A stretch of 64,000 nucleotides of DNA from Lutjanus erythropterus. Taxonomy: Eukaryota > Chordata > Actinopteri > Lutjaniformes > Lutjanidae. Within the stretch, counting starts at the first letter, position 1, and each line of letters starts with the position of its first letter. The translations under genes and the position numbers were made by a program. Shown here one piece after another: positions 4,300 through 52,162 of the stretch. The notes beneath the pieces were generated by a model. That model had not been told where the DNA came from, did not search any database, and saw only the letters and a list, made by a program, of their open reading frames with translations. Location: positions 6,967,132-7,031,131 of the forward strand of contig CM034595.1 in the NCBI GenBank assembly GCA_020091685.1, read 5' to 3'.

Positions 4300-5560
4300 C
4301 AGCAAGCATTATGTTCATGACAGTGTGACTACAGCACTTTGCTTTAGTTAGCTGCAAGAACTTCTGCACTGAATGTGATTAATACTCATCATACCATGTA
4401 CAGTTAATTTGTAGGTTTGCATGAGGAGCCACTGGTGAATCAAACCTTCACCACTGATTGCAAAGCAAACTCACATGGAATTCAACCTTTGTGAACTATA
4501 ACCAGCAAAGCACCAGTCTCAACCAGTAGCAAATAGTGGTTCTGTGTGTCGCACACCCTCCACTGCCCAAACTTTGATGAGGTCACTTGCCTGCATTTGC
4601 ATATGTGTGATGGTATCCTGAAGCCACAGTTGGCAACAACCGATCGTACACAATGTAAAACCTTTCAACTCTCTCTTTGCTGCCTGTATCACTCTTCTAA
4701 TCCCCTCCCACCAAACCCACAACCTTGAACAGCAGAAGTGGGAATAGGTTACTCAGTAAAAATTCTTTCCATAGCATGAGCCTCCCCAAGATCCCAGTCT
4801 CTCTCGTCATGACTCGTCTTCTCAAAGATGCCCCTCCAGCGCTTTACAACCCCAGGGCAGAGCGCCCCAGGCTTCAGAGGCAGGCACACTCAAAGTTATT
4901 CCCCACTGTTTGTCATCATGCTTCTTTGCATCCTGTTGATACAAGTGCCATGGCATCGCACATAATGATCACGAAGCTGCATGTGAAGCTGCAATTGGAT
5001 AAGGCTTTCACCATCTCTACAGACGTGTGGGTCTGCATTTGTGGAACAGCCAGTGGGAATCCCCTCTTTCTGTAGTGACCTGTGATTGGCTGAAGGCTTC
5101 CATCACAGGCTAGATTTTCTAAAGCTTAAAAACAGACAAGAGGATGTGCAAAAACCTAGTTCTCTCAGACCATTTGAATTATGTTTTGCTGAAAGGCTAT
5201 TATGGAATTTTTGCTCAACGATGCTGAAAAATGAACTGCCTCCTCTAGTTTTGAGAAAGACATAGGAACAGGTTGAATATTTCTTGCTCAGTAAAGCAAA
5301 GACAATTGTGTTTTTTCTTTGGTGCTGAAGAACTATCTACTGTTGCTTGTATTTCATTACAAGGTCTCAGTTGGGACAGTCAGACAGCAACACTAAAGAG
5401 TAATAGTCTTCGCCCTTACAAACAGAAGCCTCTTTGAAAGAATGCACTGTCTGTGAAGTTGTTTGAGAGATGAAAAAGTAACAGTTGAGCTGCAGTGAAG
5501 AATAGGTGATAAATGTATGCATTTATCATCCCAAAAACAGCAATTTTCTTTTTAAGGGTG
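4300..5560. other. Non-coding DNA with a possible old transposase scrap
   Basis: A 116-codon open stretch at 4725-5075 (+) ends in a segment containing KAFTISTDVW. This faintly recalls the hAT transposase block before the first catalytic Asp, but it has no flanking support. No other gene is seen. Confidence 0.2.
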
Positions 5561-5643
5561 GTTGTTGTGGCCGAGTGGTCAAGGCGATGGATTTGAAATC
5601 CATTGGGGTCACCCCCGCGCAGGTTTGAATCCTGCCAACAACG
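5561..5643 (+). tRNA. tRNA-Ser (anticodon UGA), second copy
   Basis: An 83-nt type II tRNA on the same strand as the copy at 2282. The acceptor pairs GTTGTTG with CAACAAC plus discriminator G. Box A is TGGCCGAGTGG and box B is GGTTTGAATCC. The anticodon loop TTTGAAA gives TGA. The acceptor differs from the first copy on both strands of the stem, so pairing is kept by paired changes. No TTTT terminator follows closely; the nearest T run is three. It may be a gene or a retained tRNA-like repeat. Confidence 0.8.
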
Positions 5644-8039
5644 TCTTTCTACACTGTGAGCCAGAAGGAATTTACACAGTCCTCTCCAAACAGACAATGC
5701 AGGCTTATGAAGAAGGCAAGTTTCTGCATCTGAAAATCAAAGTAGAGATATGCTTGCATGATGGAGGTGGACTGTGCTGCACATCTAACTGTAGCGTCAA
5801 CTCCTGGCAGTTATCTTAAAGAAGTACAAGGATCAAAACACTTTTAGTAAGTAAAGACAGACACTAGTTGAATGTGCGTGTGTAGTAAATGAATGACAGT
5901 CATGGACTTTAATTTAATGAAATCCTAAAAATCTCCTACTTCTCCTCCGCCTTTCCTCCTCCTATGCTTGTTGAATTCCTGACATAAAAAGCTGACTGCA
6001 GAGGAATTCCTTCATTTTGTTCACAGCGAAGGTGGTAAAATGGTGAGCACATCTGCCATATCTACCATCACTGAGGTGGGTTAATCTTGGCTTTTGCATT
6101 TCTTGAAGGTAGATCAGAAGGATTTGTTTTGTTTAATCTTTTTGACCATTAAGATAGTTGATTGTTGAGTCTCCTTCCCTGTCAAATACCAATGCTTTGG
6201 GTTAGTAAAATGTCTTGAATGCAGCAAAATAATGAAAAAATAAGGAAGTGCAGGCAAAGGGACAGGCTTTTTTTTGCAGATACAGACAACACCACACACA
6301 TCTAGTGGCTCACAAGTGATGATTGAAAGGGATTAGGCCTATGATTATATGAGTCTGTACACTGATTTTCAGGAAAATGTTGAAGCAACAGGTACACCAT
6401 TAGAAGAAGTAGGTCTAGTTATGAAAACAGGAGACACAACCACTTCAGTTGTGCTTTAGTGTTTGATAGTTCTTGCTCAGTTTTTACCTGTGTAAGTGAG
6501 AATTTTCTTGACAAAACTTTGGATTTTTGAAAGTTTTGTGGCAACCTTTGTCAGTTGCTACCAGTCCCACAATGAAACCTTGATCACTGAGCCTGACAAA
6601 CATTAGCACTCTTCATTGAGCTTTTAACCAAGTGTGAGCTGTCTTTCCGTAACATTTCTTTCAGTTTCTGTGCGAAACCAGTCACCATTTCCATTAATAC
6701 TGCCTTAAAATGGGGTTGCGATCGCATGAAGAGTCCACATGAATGCCTCCCTCATATGGTATTCACATTGGAAACTGAAAATTTTCCGAAAGCACCAAGT
6801 TCATGAGTCGTGTACACGACTTCCCATGCTGTAATTAAGAGTTCACAAGTTCCATTTGAAGGCAGCATATATCCAGGACTCTGACCTCATCCCTGGAGCT
6901 AATAGCTAGATAATTATCCACCCTGAGCTAATAGGGAGGTTTTCTTTCAAGATACTGAATATTTTCCAACCATTACTTTTGTGATTTGTGCTGTTGAATT
7001 CACAACAACTCCTCACATTGATCTTCTCATAAAGTTTCAGACATTCCAGTTTGCTTTCTGCAAATCACATGCATGTGCATCTCTCAGATGTCGTTGCTCA
7101 GAAACCTGTTTAAAGTTTGACTGATCCTTCAAACAAGCAAAGTTACACTTTAGTAAAGACAGCAAGTAGCTCCCATTTGTAATTCCACAAGCAAAAAGCA
7201 AAGGTGTTTTTTCAGCCTAGATCCTGTTGAAATATGATTGTTGTTTCATTTATAGTGCTGCATGGTACTACCTGACTAATGAAATTAAGAAAAAAAAGTA
7301 ACCACTCTTTGAATTCTGTGAGATGCAGCAGCAGCACAGGGGTTAGTGCAAACAACAGGAATTCATAGTATGCTCAAATGTGCTTCAATAATTACTGTCA
7401 TACATTGTATCAACCACTGGGGGCAGCAACCGCACCTTTAGCAGCTTCTCTGTCAGATATAAAACAGGTCAATATATGGTTACAGTGCAGCCAAACAAAC
7501 TAAACTTAAAAGATCTATCACTTCATGTCATTTTAATCAGAAATAAGTCAATAACTGGCCTTCTTCCATCAAACTGTGAGCCACTGTGATCTGATCTTGT
7601 GCTGAGTTTCTGCTTGCATTGTTTTCTGTGAATCTCTTGTGCATCTGTGGTCAGTTTGAATCCTGTTTGAGAAAGGTGGATGCAAACAATAAGAAAAAAA
7701 ACTATGACATACAATAGATAATCACCCATTCTTGAGAAGTGAGACGAATCATGAGCAAAGAAGCTTCAAAACATCAATACTCTAATTCCAATTCATAAAG
7801 TGAAAATGTGTTCTGTAAGGATATTGAAATACATGTAATTCATGAAATGTTTTGTTTTGCTTTGTTTTTCTAATTTCTAAACTTGCTCTGTGCCTGATCC
7901 CAGACCCTTTGAAATCTAAAAATAACCCCCACTGATAACATAGGTGTAAAAATGTGCTATTATAATATATGCTTTTTTCTTGAAAATTTTGGCCCTTTAA
8001 AGTTGTGTCACGGATTTCCATCAACTCAGATTTTTCCCA
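5644..8039. other. No gene seen
   Basis: AT-rich DNA without convincing coding frames, splice-bounded exons, RNA genes or element ends. The open frames are short and not bounded by gene signals. Confidence 0.5.
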
Positions 8040-20555: not shown

Positions 20556-20942
20556 AAGGGAGCTGTGGTGTGGGAACCATCTTTTATGATTCCAGCATTA
20601 CATACAGTACACGGTTCCCTCTTAACTTGTCTAAATTTACACCAAGCTTTCTGCAGCAGGCTCCAGCTGTGCAGCCACTGCAGCACTTCCTCTTTCTTCT
20701 CAGATAGAGAGCGAAAATAGCTTTACCTCTGGTCAAAATGACAAGTGCGCTGCTTTCATCCTGCGCACAAAACAGAGAGAAGTCAACCACAGGGCCCAGA
20801 GAGCTTTCATCTGCAGCGGCAAGTATAGACTTAAGCTGAGAGCGCAGACGAACTGAGAGGTAAGTCGTGAAAAGATTCAGCTCTTGTGTTACATAAAGTG
20901 GCGTGTTTTCATCACGGGTCTTTTTTCACAGATAACTTCAAC

Positions 20943-21485
20943 ATGGCACAGGGTAAAGACATGCGGTTCTTGTTTCGTTTGGTGTTGGTGTTGTCAGTCA
21001 TTCTGGCCTCGACTCTGAAAACCTTAGATTCAGATCAACAGCTGCAGGACAGCGGGTTCGGTCGGCCACCGCCTCGCCACGGACTCAAGCTGCTGGTGTG
21101 GTACGTTAAGGAATGCCTGGACAACAACATGGTGGCTCTGTGCGACCCCACAAAAGGGGAGTATGGATTTCATGAGTTCCTGAACCGCGGGCCCCATCCT
21201 CTGCTTCCCGTGATAAAGGACAAACAGCAGTACAGGTACTACACCATCGGGAACCTCAACGCGCCTCACGCCAAGGACCTGCCAGACGAAGTCAGGAAGT
21301 ACTATGACCGCAAAAACCCTAAAAGCAACATGGACAGAGTTCTGGTGAGATACAACAAGAACAACAGACGCGTGGACGAGATCTACGCGTCTGCACATTA
21401 CAAAGCAAAACAGACGTATAGAATTGGCCCCAATCTCTTTGAGTCTCTTCGACGGCGAACAGCCCTCATTAGCATAGAAATGTGA
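20943..21485 (+). CDS. Small secreted protein, function unknown (180 aa)
   Basis: A single coding exon of 180 codons. Start ATG at 20943 is in good context (AACATGG). Upstream, a donor GTAAGT at 20860 and an acceptor TTTTTTCACAG ending at 20931 outline a 72-bp intron in the 5' leader; an earlier in-frame Met at 20886 falls inside that intron and is not used. Residues 7-23 ([17 protein letters not shown]) look like a signal peptide. The mature part has two cysteines (C58, C67) in [17 protein letters not shown], which could form a disulphide. It also has a Tyr-rich centre ([12 protein letters not shown]) and a basic tail (ESLRRR). There are no membrane spans. Codon use and the clean frame suggest a real gene. 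I do not recognise the family with certainty. No AATAAA was found close downstream. Confidence 0.75.
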
Positions 21486-34380: not shown

Positions 34381-35206
34381 ACTAATCAATCACTGGAATG
34401 AGCTGCAGGTTGATGAGGTTCAGACAGACCGTGAGTTCTCCGGTGTGACACATTTTTTCACTCATTTATCTCTCGATTGTTTCATTCATCTTCATTTCAT
34501 CCCTCACCTCAAGGATCAGCTTTTTCCACTGTTGGCGCCTGAGATAAAACATCTCTTCACATTCCCCCCAGAGATTTATAGATTTGTGAGCTGTTCATTA
34601 CTGTTTGCCACTCTTTGATATCAAAATGATCAGAGTGTCATTTCCCATTAGTTGCATCATCTCATCTATAATGCATTGTTTAGCACAGTCACATAGATTT
34701 GTGGACGCTGAAATGCAGATTAGAGCTGGACACAGCGAGGGATAAAAAAAGCAAGTGTTCCTCCACCATTACACAGTAATAATGTGACAATATCAGGAAT
34801 TCTTCATGTTAAAAAAGAAAAAGAGACACCCACACACTGTCTTCACTTGTTCAATAAAGAACATTCTTAACAGACAACATTTCAAGGACCTTCTTCGGGT
34901 ATATGCTTACAAGCTGAGCAGACATCCATATATATAAAAGGCAGGGCTCACAGAGACCTGTCATCACAAGCTTATCAGGGTGAACTCCTCCTGCAAATTG
35001 TTACAAGTCATTTGACCTCAATTACAACATAAGTATATACAAAAAAGATTAAAATTGGCTCAATAGATCAGAGGTCTTGTCAATAATCAGAATCAGAATT
35101 GATCCCTGGGAGGAAATTGTTGATGTTACAGGTGCTCCCGTTCAAGAATAGAAAATATATATTAGCATAGAGAATTATGAGAAGAGAAAATAGGAATTAC
35201 GTAAAA
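34381..35206. other. No gene seen
   Basis: AT-rich non-coding sequence up to the left end of the next transposon. Confidence 0.45.
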
Positions 35207-37143
35207 GGGTCATTCCTACTATTCGGTGCCATTTGAGTCCCCATGCCATAATGTGGTATATTTTGTGTAAAAGTGGGCTAATATTTATTTTTAATATCTC
35301 ATCTTACATGGTTAACTCCCCTCTACCATAAAACACAACCATATGTACACAGGATAAATTGATTTAAAATAATTAATATGATTTTAATTGCAATTAGGGT
35401 GTTTGCTCAAATTAAGTTACAATTATAAGTAATAAAAATCAAATAAAGTCTATTTTTTTCATTATTTCTGTATAGCCTCATTTATAACGGTTCCCAACCA
35501 ATGTTTTTTTTTGTTATCAAAACATTTTAAATGTTTAAATTCTTAAAAATAAGTTGTGTCCCTGAGTCGACTGTCCACCCTGTTACTCTGACAAAAAACC
35601 CCTCCCCCTCCCTCCTGTCCATTCATCTAGTCACATAACTCACAGAAAGTAGCAGATATTCTTGAAGGGAAAACATCTACATGAAGCAGGGTCAGTATCA
35701 CTCTTTAATTAATCCTTTTTTCCAGTGTTTTAGAATGGTTCACTGATGTGGTAAAGCATAACATGTCCACTCTGTTACCCTTGTTTATATTGAAAACTCA
35801 TATTTTTTGTAATTTTGAAAAATGTTGTTAGTAAATACATTAAAAATCCTTCTCTGTAGCCACCATGTGCTAGCTTGTTGTTCATCACAGGACTAGTAAT
35901 ATCTGATGTTAGCTTAAAATGTCCCCCCTGTTACTGTCCACCCTGTTACTGTTTTGCATGGTAACAGGGTGGACGTAAGATAAGAGGGCTAGATGAATTA
36001 GTGTTTCCACCATTAATTCTTATTTACTATTGATTTATTATGAATTTGTTTGTCATTTATGCTTTTAAAAAAGATTGATCAAAACAATATGAATCTATTT
36101 GTCAGGGAATGGTGTCGTCTGCTGCAGAAAAAAGGCCTTAAGTTATTACAAAAGAAAACATTGGGCAGTGGTGCGTTGTCAGTTATGATGGTGAGCCACA
36201 CCCAGGAATCATCCTGGAGGTTGAAGAGGATGTTAAGGTGAAATGCACATATAGGAATGGGACCAACAAGTTTTTCTGGCCAAGTCGACAAGACGACATT
36301 AGCTGGTACAGGAATGACCAGATTGTGTGCCTAATGAGAGAGCCACAACCCCTAAACAAGAGGTCTGTCCAGCTGGACAAAAATGTGTGGAATTTCTTAG
36401 CAATTGAAAAATGTTTGTGATGTTTATTTTGGAGGTGCAGGACATTTGATTTGAGTTTGATGTGGACATGTTTCTGTTGTTGTTGTGATGGTTGTTGGGA
36501 GGTTGTAAGGTAAATGAACTGCCTTACTTTAATGAAATGCATTGCTGTTCACTGGTATGATGTCCACCCTGTTACGTCCTGTCCCCCCTGTTTCTCCTTT
36601 GTCCACCCTGTTACCTGTGTATTTTTTAAATTAATTGAATAAAAACAACAAGCATTATGCTTGTCTTTGTGAATACTGACAGTGAATGAATTAAATATAT
36701 CAGTCAATTAAAAATGGGGTGAAGTTTCATTGAAATTGCTTTTTATTCTTAAAGAAATGTGTTGAAATCACATTGTGCCTTAGTATAGAACGTCTCTTTT
36801 CAAGATAATGCTTGTTTATTAATACTTTTTAAAAAATACATTTAAAGGGCAAAGTAAGGGACATTTAAACTCTTAGGAAATGTAAATAGTAAATAATTGT
36901 CCTTTCAAAAACACTTACTAATAGAGATAAGAATGTCCTGTAACAGGGTGGACATTTGCCCCATGTCTTGTACCGGGAATTTGGTCAAAATCATTATAAT
37001 ATGATATCCTGAGCTTGACCAATATATTTTTCTTATAATTTAACAAGCCCTCCTTCAGATGAAATGATAAAATCCTGCAAAATTTTACATTTTTTAATCT
37101 AAGGTTACCATGGTCAAATGGCACCGAATAGTAGGAATGACCC
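35207..37143 (+). mobile_element. DNA transposon with perfect 30-bp inverted ends and internal 14-bp motif array
   Basis: Both ends begin GGGTCATTCCTACTATTCGG and are identical for 30 bp before diverging, so insertion is recent or the ends are well kept. The flanks are A-rich (TAAAA | AAAAA) and leave a short target duplication ambiguous. Inside are nine copies of GTCCACCCTGTTAC: 35573, 35765 (one change), 35921 (one change), 35936, 35961 (reverse), 36562, 36581 (two changes), 36601 and 36940 (reverse). Copies 35936 and 35961 form a perfect 14-bp hairpin with an 11-nt loop. One open stretch (36142-36420) encodes a conserved-looking domain. No full transposase is visible. I cannot assign a superfamily. 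Confidence 0.85.
36142..36420 (+). CDS. 92-codon open stretch in the transposon, Tudor-like character (unidentified)
   Basis: The frame is open for 92 codons and ends in TGA at 36418. It contains GQWCVVSYDGEPHPGIILEV, then VKVKCTYRNGTNKFFWPSRQ, DDISWYRNDQIVCLM and KRSVQLDKNVWNFL. Alternating aromatic/hydrophobic residues with YDG..PGII resemble a small SH3/Tudor-type barrel, and WC..YDG..PG patterns recur, from memory, in fish proteins of unknown function. It lacks a credible start Met near its beginning, so it is probably the last exon of a longer gene carried by the element; upstream exons were not found. Its intact frame inside a TIR element suggests that it is, or recently was, functional. 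Confidence 0.5.
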   Translation, partial: VITKENIGQWCVVSYDGEPHPGIILEVEEDVKVKCTYRNGTNKFFWPSRQDDISWYRNDQIVCLMREPQPLNKRSVQLDKNVWNFLAIEKCL

Positions 37144-37630
37144 AAAAATATATACATTCTACAACAATATATAACAGAGATAATATGGCAATAACAAATA
37201 CAGTGTGTAAAGGTGCATGTGCCGAATCTACAATATGTAACAGTAATGTATAAATCTAGAACTGCAATATATGGAAAATAAACAATGATAGAAATACAAG
37301 AATGGATGTAAAATTATGTACAATGATGTGGATCAAGCTACAATCATATATAACAGTGTAATAACAATGCTGTATGTGTCGCACGGTGAGTTATTACACA
37401 GTTATTGTATGACAGTCAGCACAGTTGAAGTATAAATAGAGAATAAATAATGAGGTTGTAGTTGCTGTCAGAAGTGAAATAAGTCCAGTATAAGTTTGTC
37501 AGACACTCTGAGTTAAGCATTAACTCTGAAAAAATTCTATATGCAGTGAAGTTATAGCCATAACACAGAAAATGACTAGGGACGACTGTCAGTATTCATC
37601 TGAGACATCTAATACTGTTGTCAGAGAAGT

Positions 37631-39494: not shown

Positions 39495-40490
39495 AAAAAA
39501 TGGTTAAAGTACACATATTCTGTACTCAAGCAGAAGAATGTGAGTAAAAAAGACTTTTACGTTGTTTTTTTCTTACTACACCTTTATATCCTGGTACATC
39601 TTTTTCATCTTGTTACGATTTGTCACATCTTTTATGCCACCTTGTTACATGTTTTATGTTGTTTTTATCTTGTTACAGCTTTTACATCATTTTGTGCTTT
39701 TACATTAGTTTCAATTTGAGTTTTGTTATGTTGTTTTTGTATTGTTAAGTCATTTTACGAAGGTTTGGTCTTGTTATGTGTTTCATGTTGTGTTCGTCTT
39801 GTTACATCTTTTATGCCATTTTTGTCTCATCATGTTTTTTCCATCTTTTTCATCTTGTTATGTCATCTTTGTCCTGTTATGTCTTATACATCTTTGTTTT
39901 TCCATTTTTCACTTCATTTTAGTCTTGTTGCATCGTTTTTGTATTGTTAAGTCCTTTATGACATTTTTGTCTTTTATGTCTTTAATATCTTTTTTATCTT
40001 GTTATGTCTTTTATGCCGCTTTTGGCTTGTTTCATATTTGACATTGTTTTCATCTTGTTTCGTCTTTTTCGTGATTTTTGTGTTGTTTTACGTTTGTCAC
40101 ATAATTTTTCTTTTGATACATTTTTCACGTCATTTTAGTCTTGCTACCTTGTTTTTGTATTAAGTCTTACATACATTTGGTCTTGTCTTTTACATCGTTT
40201 TCGTCTCGTTATGTCTGTCGTGTGATACGCCGGAATCATCTTTTCTATGTGTTACTGTCCCATCCACTTAACATGAAGTTGGTCATGATGTTGAGAGGGT
40301 GGCATCCAGTGAAGCAAAATAAAAATAACAACATTTACCCTCAAATGCATTAAAACTTAAGTAACAAGCCTGTTTTGAAAATGTAAGGAGTAGAAAGTAC
40401 AGGTATTTGTGTTAACATGTTGGGAGTAAAAGTCAAAAGTTGTCAGAAAAAGAAATACTCAAGTAAAGTACAAATACTACTCATCTCTAG
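39495..40490. repeat. Degenerate T-rich tandem repeat inside an inverted-end element
   Basis: From about 39560 to 40230 the sequence is a degenerate array of units like TTTTGTCTTGTTATGTCTTT, roughly 20-30 bp each. The outer flanks (AAAGTACACATATTCTGTACTCAAGC at the left, TACTCAAGTAAAGTACAAATAC at the right) are an eroded inverted pair, so the array seems to have grown in a MITE. The open frames across it are artefacts. Confidence 0.6.
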
Positions 40491-51503: not shown

Positions 51504-51892
51504 AAATATTAAAGAATCTATGCACTTTGTTTCACAGTAATCCAGGGTTCATAAGATTACAGTGACCACAAAAACACCATGAATAAATAAACACACCTGA
51601 AATAAGCTTCACAGGGGACATTTTTTTTACAGATAAAGTAAAGCATTTATTGATTATCATATATATATATCACAACATATAATAATATTTTAAATGATGG
51701 ACCTATCATCCATGACAGAAAAAAAGGATTCACTGGATCCATATCAGTGGTTCCCCCAGCTTTTTTGCTTTGGGAGGGGGGAACACTGATTTGTGTTCAC
51801 ATTTTTTTTTTTATTTTAGCAATGGAACACTGTTTTTATTTAATTATTCAATCATTTATTTATTTATGCATCTATCCATCCATCCAACACCA

Positions 51893-52162
51893 GAACCCAG
51901 TCAACAATATTCTGGCTATCATACGGCAGGACTAACCAACAGACACTGCAGAGTCGAGGGCCCCCCTCCTGACATCTGCATTGAAATACTGGACTCTGAA
52001 GAAGCATCGGAACTCAGTCAGCAATATTCTGGTTGTCATACGGCAGGACCAGCCAATAGACACTGCAGCGTTGAGGGCCCGCATCCACACACGTGCATTG
52101 AAATACCGGACTCTGAAGAAGCATCAGAACTCAGTCAACAGTATCTGTTCCTACCATACTAG
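51893..52162 (+). CDS. Possible exon with a 39-residue tandem repeat (unidentified)
   Basis: After a plausible acceptor (CCAACACCAG), an open frame runs to a TAG at 52160. It contains two tandem 117-bp units starting at 51901 and 52018, about 86% identical, and the first residues of a third at 52135. Each unit encodes SQQYSGYHTAG.., NRHC.VEGP, CIEI.DSEEASEL. The IEI.DSEE part of unit 1 (IEILDSEE) fits the form of a SUMO-interacting motif followed by acidic residues; unit 2 has Pro in place of Leu. Most differences leave the frame open. It lies about 450 bp after the P2X7-like gene's stop and could be a 3' exon of an alternative transcript or an independent relic. I do not recognise a family. 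Confidence 0.35.
   Translation, partial: EPSQQYSGYHTAGLTNRHCRVEGPPPDICIEILDSEEASELSQQYSGCHTAGPANRHCSVEGPHPHTCIEIPDSEEASELSQQYLFLPY

Follow-up and report, generated by a model that had tools for sequence, protein, structure and literature searches.

What are nine copies of one 14-bp word doing in a DNA transposon barely two kilobases long? This question is raised by an element in the window, that is, the whole stretch of 64,000 nucleotides of the Lutjanus erythropterus genome that was analysed. An earlier note, made from the letters alone, had suggested that the copies may be bound by a protein, either encoded or acting in trans. The explanation considered rather probable here is that of an internally deleted transposon, in which the nine words are putative docking sites of one DNA-binding protein, most likely its own transposase. 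The object as such, a non-autonomous transposon, is ordinary. Its uncommon feature is a scaffold of sites that is kept between two families, with a word that differs in step.

The element occupies positions 35207-37143 on the plus strand (1937 bp). Its terminal inverted repeats, with the end sequence GGGTCATTCC, lie at 35207-35236 (plus strand) and 37114-37143 (minus strand); they are 30 nt long and 100% complementary, exactly as they had been described before. A 4-bp target-site duplication, AAAA, flanks the element at 35203-35206 and 37144-37147. The nearest copies in the genome (937.6 Mb, with the window on contig C5) are 98-99% identical. Among the 27 copies examined, 23 retain both tips and could be scored, and exact 4-bp duplications are found in 21 of these 23, the exceptions being L017 and L026. 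In all 21, the longest direct flanking match is 4 bp, and the duplicated sequences vary (AGCT, TATT, TTCT, AGGT and others). The perfect ends, these duplications and the many close copies confirm that the element is a DNA transposon.

A consensus of 1959 bp, 22 bp longer than the window copy, was built from 16 close copies (the window copy and L009-L023). Fifteen of the 16 diverge from it by 0.05-0.41%. The remaining one, L023 (C2:3056650-3059778), diverges by 1.38% and has an internal duplication of 170 extra bp, in which the left-end stretch 59-233 occurs twice. The family is a young, recently amplified DNA transposon. In the older copies, the 60 terminal-repeat columns are 9.58% different from the young consensus, the highest value of all column classes, and in L025, L027, L037, L038 and others the difference in these columns is ~8-17%. 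Judging from these columns, the element ends may have changed between subfamilies.

The array starts with site 1, GTCCACCCTGTTAC, an exact match at 35573-35586. It continues with site 2, GTCCACTCTGTTAC, at 35765-35778 and site 3, GTCCCCCCTGTTAC, at 35921-35934, each with one mismatch. Site 4, again GTCCACCCTGTTAC, at 35936-35949 and the inverted site 5 at 35961-35974 are both exact and together form a perfect hairpin, a 14-nt inverted pair with an 11-nt loop. Further downstream, site 6 (36562-36575, exact), site 7 (GTCCCCCCTGTTTC, 36581-36594, two mismatches) and site 8 (36601-36614, exact) are followed by site 9, exact and inverted, at 36940-36953, 190 bp from the right end. Sites 5 and 9 are on the minus strand and all others on the plus strand. 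The earlier description of the array, with nine copies of which six are exact and two on the minus strand (35961 and 36940), and with a hairpin at 35936/35961, is correct in every point.

The word is largely confined to this family. Outside the element, the window holds no match with up to two mismatches, in agreement with the earlier remark that the motif is absent elsewhere, and seven matches with three mismatches. In total, 16 matches with up to three mismatches were found in the window, whereas 100 shuffles gave 3.8 on average and at most 9. Across the 938-Mb genome, exact GTCCACCCTGTTAC occurs 134 times against 8 times for the reversed control, and 132 of the 134 occurrences are inside family copies. 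This count is composed of 98 among the 100 matches listed and 34 exact words in the remaining copies (C16 to C23), equal in number to the 34 others. The 98 listed family matches sit in 33 copies or fragments, which represent 0.006% of the genome, two weak or very short matches being omitted. The hairpin pattern of sites 4 and 5 was found at 18 places genome-wide, 17 of them in the window family and one in a second family on C22 described below (control 0). A simple tandem expansion is ruled out by the 132 of 134 exact words in family copies and by the dispersed sites. Copies lacking the array, which the earlier note had named as evidence that would speak against its reading, are not what the family presents: the array is there in the other copies, complete or partial.

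Some further features of the window were recorded. A long degenerate T-rich array at 39580-40200, with units like TTTTATGTC..TTGTTA, includes a motif match with three mismatches at 39635; it looks like a decayed minisatellite and not like a part of the transposon group. Two tRNA genes lie on the plus strand at 2282-2363 and 5561-5643 (Rfam RF00005, 66.1 and 64.8 bits). A 204-aa stop-to-stop frame with a hydrophobic start at 20871-21485 looks like a real coding exon, and a tandem array at 51891-52144 (117-bp unit, 2.2 copies, 85% matches) overlaps an open frame.

The position of the sites within the element can be read from an older copy, L037 (C10). This copy, 4137 bp long, retains both ends and is flanked by a 4-bp duplication. 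In its interior, in the part that corresponds to consensus positions 738 to 950, lie ~2.35 kb of broken coding sequence, and its flanks are 92% and 86% identical to those of the short copies. The coding remnant includes HFFSDGPATQY and WNFFEANQGKGAPDG, is related to better-preserved frames elsewhere in the genome and ends in a C-terminal domain that is also kept by the window copy. There, this domain forms a 92-aa open stretch at 36142-36417 on the plus strand, which is found in the C22-family protein and in L063 as well. It belongs to no Pfam family, and no PDB sequence is convincingly related to it (best E 0.067). Judged by the ends and flanks it has in common with the longer coding copy L037, the window element is an internally deleted non-autonomous derivative, with the deletion junction approximately at 36130-36135.

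In the 2-kb copies, the start region (MVSSAAEK) is fused in frame to the C-terminal domain. The resulting mini reading frame of the window copy, at 36109-36420 on the plus strand, joins this 8-codon start region to the C-terminal domain of a transposase-like protein, with a stop at 36139-36141. This stop at codon 11 is present in the window copy, L009-L024 and L026, and absent in six older copies (L025, L027, L028, L038, L040 and L041), most of which have later stops. Its presence in the young copies indicates that the recent burst needed no intact mini-protein of its own.

L037 itself is without sites 3-5 and without the start region. Taking both kinds of copies together, the parental order would be sites 1-5 upstream of the start codon, then the gene, then sites 6-9 downstream of the stop codon. 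The earlier note had stressed that the motif also lies in the middle of the element. This is true of the window copy, but it is explained by the internal deletion, since the parental sites flank the gene. A motif that is central by design is ruled out by L037, in which the gene stands between two site groups. L037 has both ends, but its transposase-like gene is broken. No intact transposase of the window family was found in the genome among the best candidates, which were inspected. Two shorter deletion derivatives, L040 and L041 (~1.3 and 1.25 kb), have exact 4-bp duplications and keep three and four of the nine sites, respectively (with up to three mismatches). Judging by them, the full array may not be required, unless the missing sites were lost only once these copies had inserted.

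The L037 protein has its best relative on C22, with 55% identity over 147 residues, in an open frame of 344 aa in which the C-terminal domain is included. In the family to which this relative belongs, each of the nine sites has a counterpart, order and orientation being those of the window family, but the word is another, YTCAACCCCGTTAY. Before the gene, these counterparts are CTCAACCCCGTTAC, CTCAACACCGTAAC, CTCAACCCGGTCAC, CTCAACCCCGTTAT and the inverted CACAACCCCGTTAC, matching sites 1 to 5; after the gene they are TTCAACCCCGTTAC, TTCAACCCTGTTAT, CTCAACCCCGTCAC and the inverted TTCAACCCCGTTAT, matching sites 6 to 9. The start-to-start spacings are 190/156/15/24 and 18/20/335, followed by 189 bp to the end (GGAATGACTC), compared with 192/156/15/25 and 19/20/339, followed by 190 bp to the end (GGAATGACCC), in the window family. 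The difference is 0-4 bp. This nine-site layout was read from one element, in the pieces C22:1-4926 and 5200-5699, its 5' end being outside them.

A scan of the C22 pieces with YTCAACCCYGTTAY, allowing up to three mismatches, gave 12 matches: the nine sites, an extra inverted site adjoining site 5, a weak match in the coding region and one match past the element. Within the element there are thus 11 matches, whereas 100 shuffles gave 1.6 on average and never more than 5. Three more fragments of the C22 family (C8 twice, C13) match its 3' part at 96-97%, the query being the 3' part only, and keep the inverted site at an unchanged distance from the tip. In all, the tip-to-site-9 distance pattern is present at 22 window-family and four C22-family places. 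An older C22-family copy, L067, shows no sites with up to three mismatches; this is uninformative, since its 94.9%-alike part stops inside the coding region, short of the site positions.

The two words differ in step at three positions. Position 1 is G in 9/9 window-family sites and Y in 9/9 C22 sites, position 4 is C in 9/9 versus A in 9/9, and position 9 is T in 9/9 versus C in 7/9. Within a family, the mean likeness of sites is 13.17 of 14 in the window family and 11.58 of 14 in C22, where the sites were chosen with their own consensus, which inflates their mutual likeness, and where sites 2 and 3 depart from this consensus at two positions. Between the families, homologous sites are alike at 9.89 of 14 positions and non-homologous sites at 9.78. 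Among the 256 arrangements obtained by swapping homologous sites between the families, the true grouping gives the most uniform sets. Independent drift would have left the sites most like their own counterparts; as this is not so, a common binding protein would be the simplest cause.

Descent was considered as a source of the common layout. A blastn comparison of the 3' flanks of the two families gave no significant match (best E 0.023, on the opposite strand), nor did one of the 5' flanks, confined to the plus strand (best E 0.14, for 39 collinear nt that include site 1). An anchored global alignment of the 3' flanks scored 247, against 152 +- 11 in shuffles. Stretch by stretch, z values of 4.4, 2.1, 1.8 and 5.3 were reached in four of six stretches, with 0.3 and -0.5 in the others. 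By these alignments, the flanks of the window and C22 families still show common ancestry. Shared descent of the flanks is thus a partial explanation of the common layout, but it does not explain the in-step difference. Within the window family, columns were compared across 15 older loci, with matches of at least 200 bits. Motif columns are 3.33% different and other non-coding columns 4.27% (Fisher p = 0.14, not significant), and the coding columns of the same loci are 6.59% different.

Part of the layout recurs in a third family. A genome-wide search for the pattern of the direct pair gave 15 places (control 0), namely C22, C9, C23 and 12 copies of ACCCTGTTACCCTAATTTCAACCCTGTTAC. An inverted site was predicted from the window layout and searched for at a start-to-start distance of 329-359 bp; it lies at exactly +339 bp in 12/12 third-family copies (control 0), which as one family count as one independent event. 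This is the distance between sites 8 and 9 in the window family. With a direct pair 20 bp apart and the inverted site, the third family has a part of the 3' layout. The pattern searches gave no hairpin of the site 4/5 type and no tip-to-site-9 match in it, and it does not match the C22 3' flank. By itself, the pattern TTCAACCCYGTTAY shows no more than a mild enrichment (52 versus 34 in the control). Two further related transposase families are present in the genome, L061 with L063 (C4, C5) and L064 with L065 (C16, C3). No comparable array was seen in L061-L065, in stretches of 3.3-3.5 kb that mostly end short of the flanks; the look-up in relatives consisted of a repeat search on L060-L064 and a core scan on L060-L065.

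Could the sites bind a host protein instead of the transposase? Fish have large zinc-finger gene families. The element might be driven or silenced by a transcription factor or repressor of the host, such as a zinc-finger protein; the five sites upstream of the parental start codon are in a promoter-like place, and zinc-finger genes evolve against transposable elements (PMC10547256). However, four of the nine sites follow the gene in a fixed arrangement, the last of them 190 bp from the right end. Binding of a repressor should favour loss of the sites over their upkeep, and the in-step difference, which affects the sites before and after the gene alike, agrees with a protein that evolves together with the element. 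A host factor is regarded as unlikely.

It is quite improbable that the array is functionless, an ancient set of copies that passed into both families and was homogenised within each by gene conversion or chance. Such an origin would agree with motif columns that are not significantly slower than their surroundings in the window family and with the residual similarity of the flanks (3' flank 247 against 152 +- 11, and the z values by stretch given above). Conversion, however, is unlikely to homogenise nine distinct stretches of 14 bp, two in inverted orientation and some hundreds of bp from each other, without spreading the flanks, and the direct-repeat family covers only 18 nt around the 14-nt word. 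An action of the words in RNA (UTR stability, localisation or folding) and not in DNA, for which the perfect hairpin of sites 4 and 5 and the presence of sites before and after the reading frame might speak, is very improbable given that both orientations are in use and retained and that the inverted site 9 keeps a fixed distance from the DNA end at the 22 window-family and four C22-family places.

Docking of the element's own transposase would work as follows. The array would be occupied by several transposase subunits, which would bring both ends together in a single complex; sites 1-5, upstream, could regulate the transposase gene as well. The deletion took most of the gene and kept both flanks, leaving copies that could still be moved in trans. 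The earlier suggestion that an encoded or trans-acting protein binds these sites gains indirect support from the layout common with C22 and from the in-step difference, and the sites are best called putative. Some observations count against transposase docking: the motif columns are not slowed (p = 0.14), L040 and L041 have few sites, and no intact transposase was found among the best candidates. In addition, the nearest sites, 190 and 388 bp from the ends, are rather far for end recognition.

Beyond this element, an even chance is given to the wider claim that a transposon group retains a nine-site scaffold (five sites before the gene and four after it), constant in order and orientation and nearly so in spacing, in which the 14-bp word is rewritten in step at all nine sites in each lineage. 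If this is true, the group would represent a series of natural switches in transposase specificity on a large multi-subunit complex of fixed geometry. Multi-site transposon arrays are known, but the joint change of a transposase and its sites is hard to catch. Transposases that are ~55% identical (over 147 residues), with one layout and a word differing at three positions, would allow a test of the evolution of DNA specificity. The comparison of the two families would also test whether the geometry of the array is built into the transposition complex as a fixed part. It further suggests a way to find such elements, namely to search for the spacing and not for the word.

The assignment to a superfamily is provisional. 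By its 4-bp duplications, a length also found in superfamilies other than Sola2, the element is classed as Sola2-like, not as Sola2 proper. Pfam scans of the fragments returned no transposase model and sub-threshold matches only, for example to DUF4349 over a coiled-coil stretch. A candidate first D lies in H(V/I)D(F/Y)SE, present in the four related fragments that span this part (L037 does not), and a candidate second D in the SDGP/SDEP motif of 6/6 fragments covering that part intact. A candidate E lies in WNFxEAxxGKGxPDGV, present in 5/5 fragments covering that part. AT-rich duplications of 4 bp have been described in a study that regards this length as consistent with Sola2 (PMC3627910), and the 4-bp target duplications found here agree with it; site arrays go unmentioned in the available text of that source.

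A literature text search that included sequence words showed no report of a nine-site array among the papers listed, the listed word matches being to 10-base end words only. Elements of the CACTA/En-Spm group have CACTA ends, a 2-3-bp duplication and TnpA motif arrays, with many copies of short motifs in both subterminal regions. The repetition of a short motif is a point of likeness, but this group is disfavoured by the ends, GGGTCATTCC and not CACTA, and by the 4-bp duplication. The hAT elements, with 8-bp target duplications, are disfavoured as well, the duplication being 4 bp here and no hAT model appearing in the Pfam scans. Galileo, of the P superfamily, has a target duplication length that differs from 4 bp. 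The target of piggyBac is TTAA (PMC7351741), and this group is disfavoured by the variable duplications given above.

Two known systems have arrays that work in a similar way. In Galileo, one DNA-binding domain of the transposase serves several sites per element (THAP sites; PMC3688188). The inverted ends of Galileo are long, against 30 bp here, and a THAP domain had no match in the fragments scanned, which held no complete N-terminus of the window family. In Hermes, a hAT element, short repeated sites also lie inside the ends, with a different arrangement at the left and right and with palindromic pairs, and these subterminal repeats are bound by a BED domain (PMC10368747). Several of the Hermes repeats are within the first 55 bp of each end, whereas the 14-bp sites described here start at the distances of 190 and 388 bp given above. 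In principle, the proposed mechanism would be comparable to the action of the Hermes subterminal repeats (PMC10368747) and of the Galileo THAP sites (PMC3688188).
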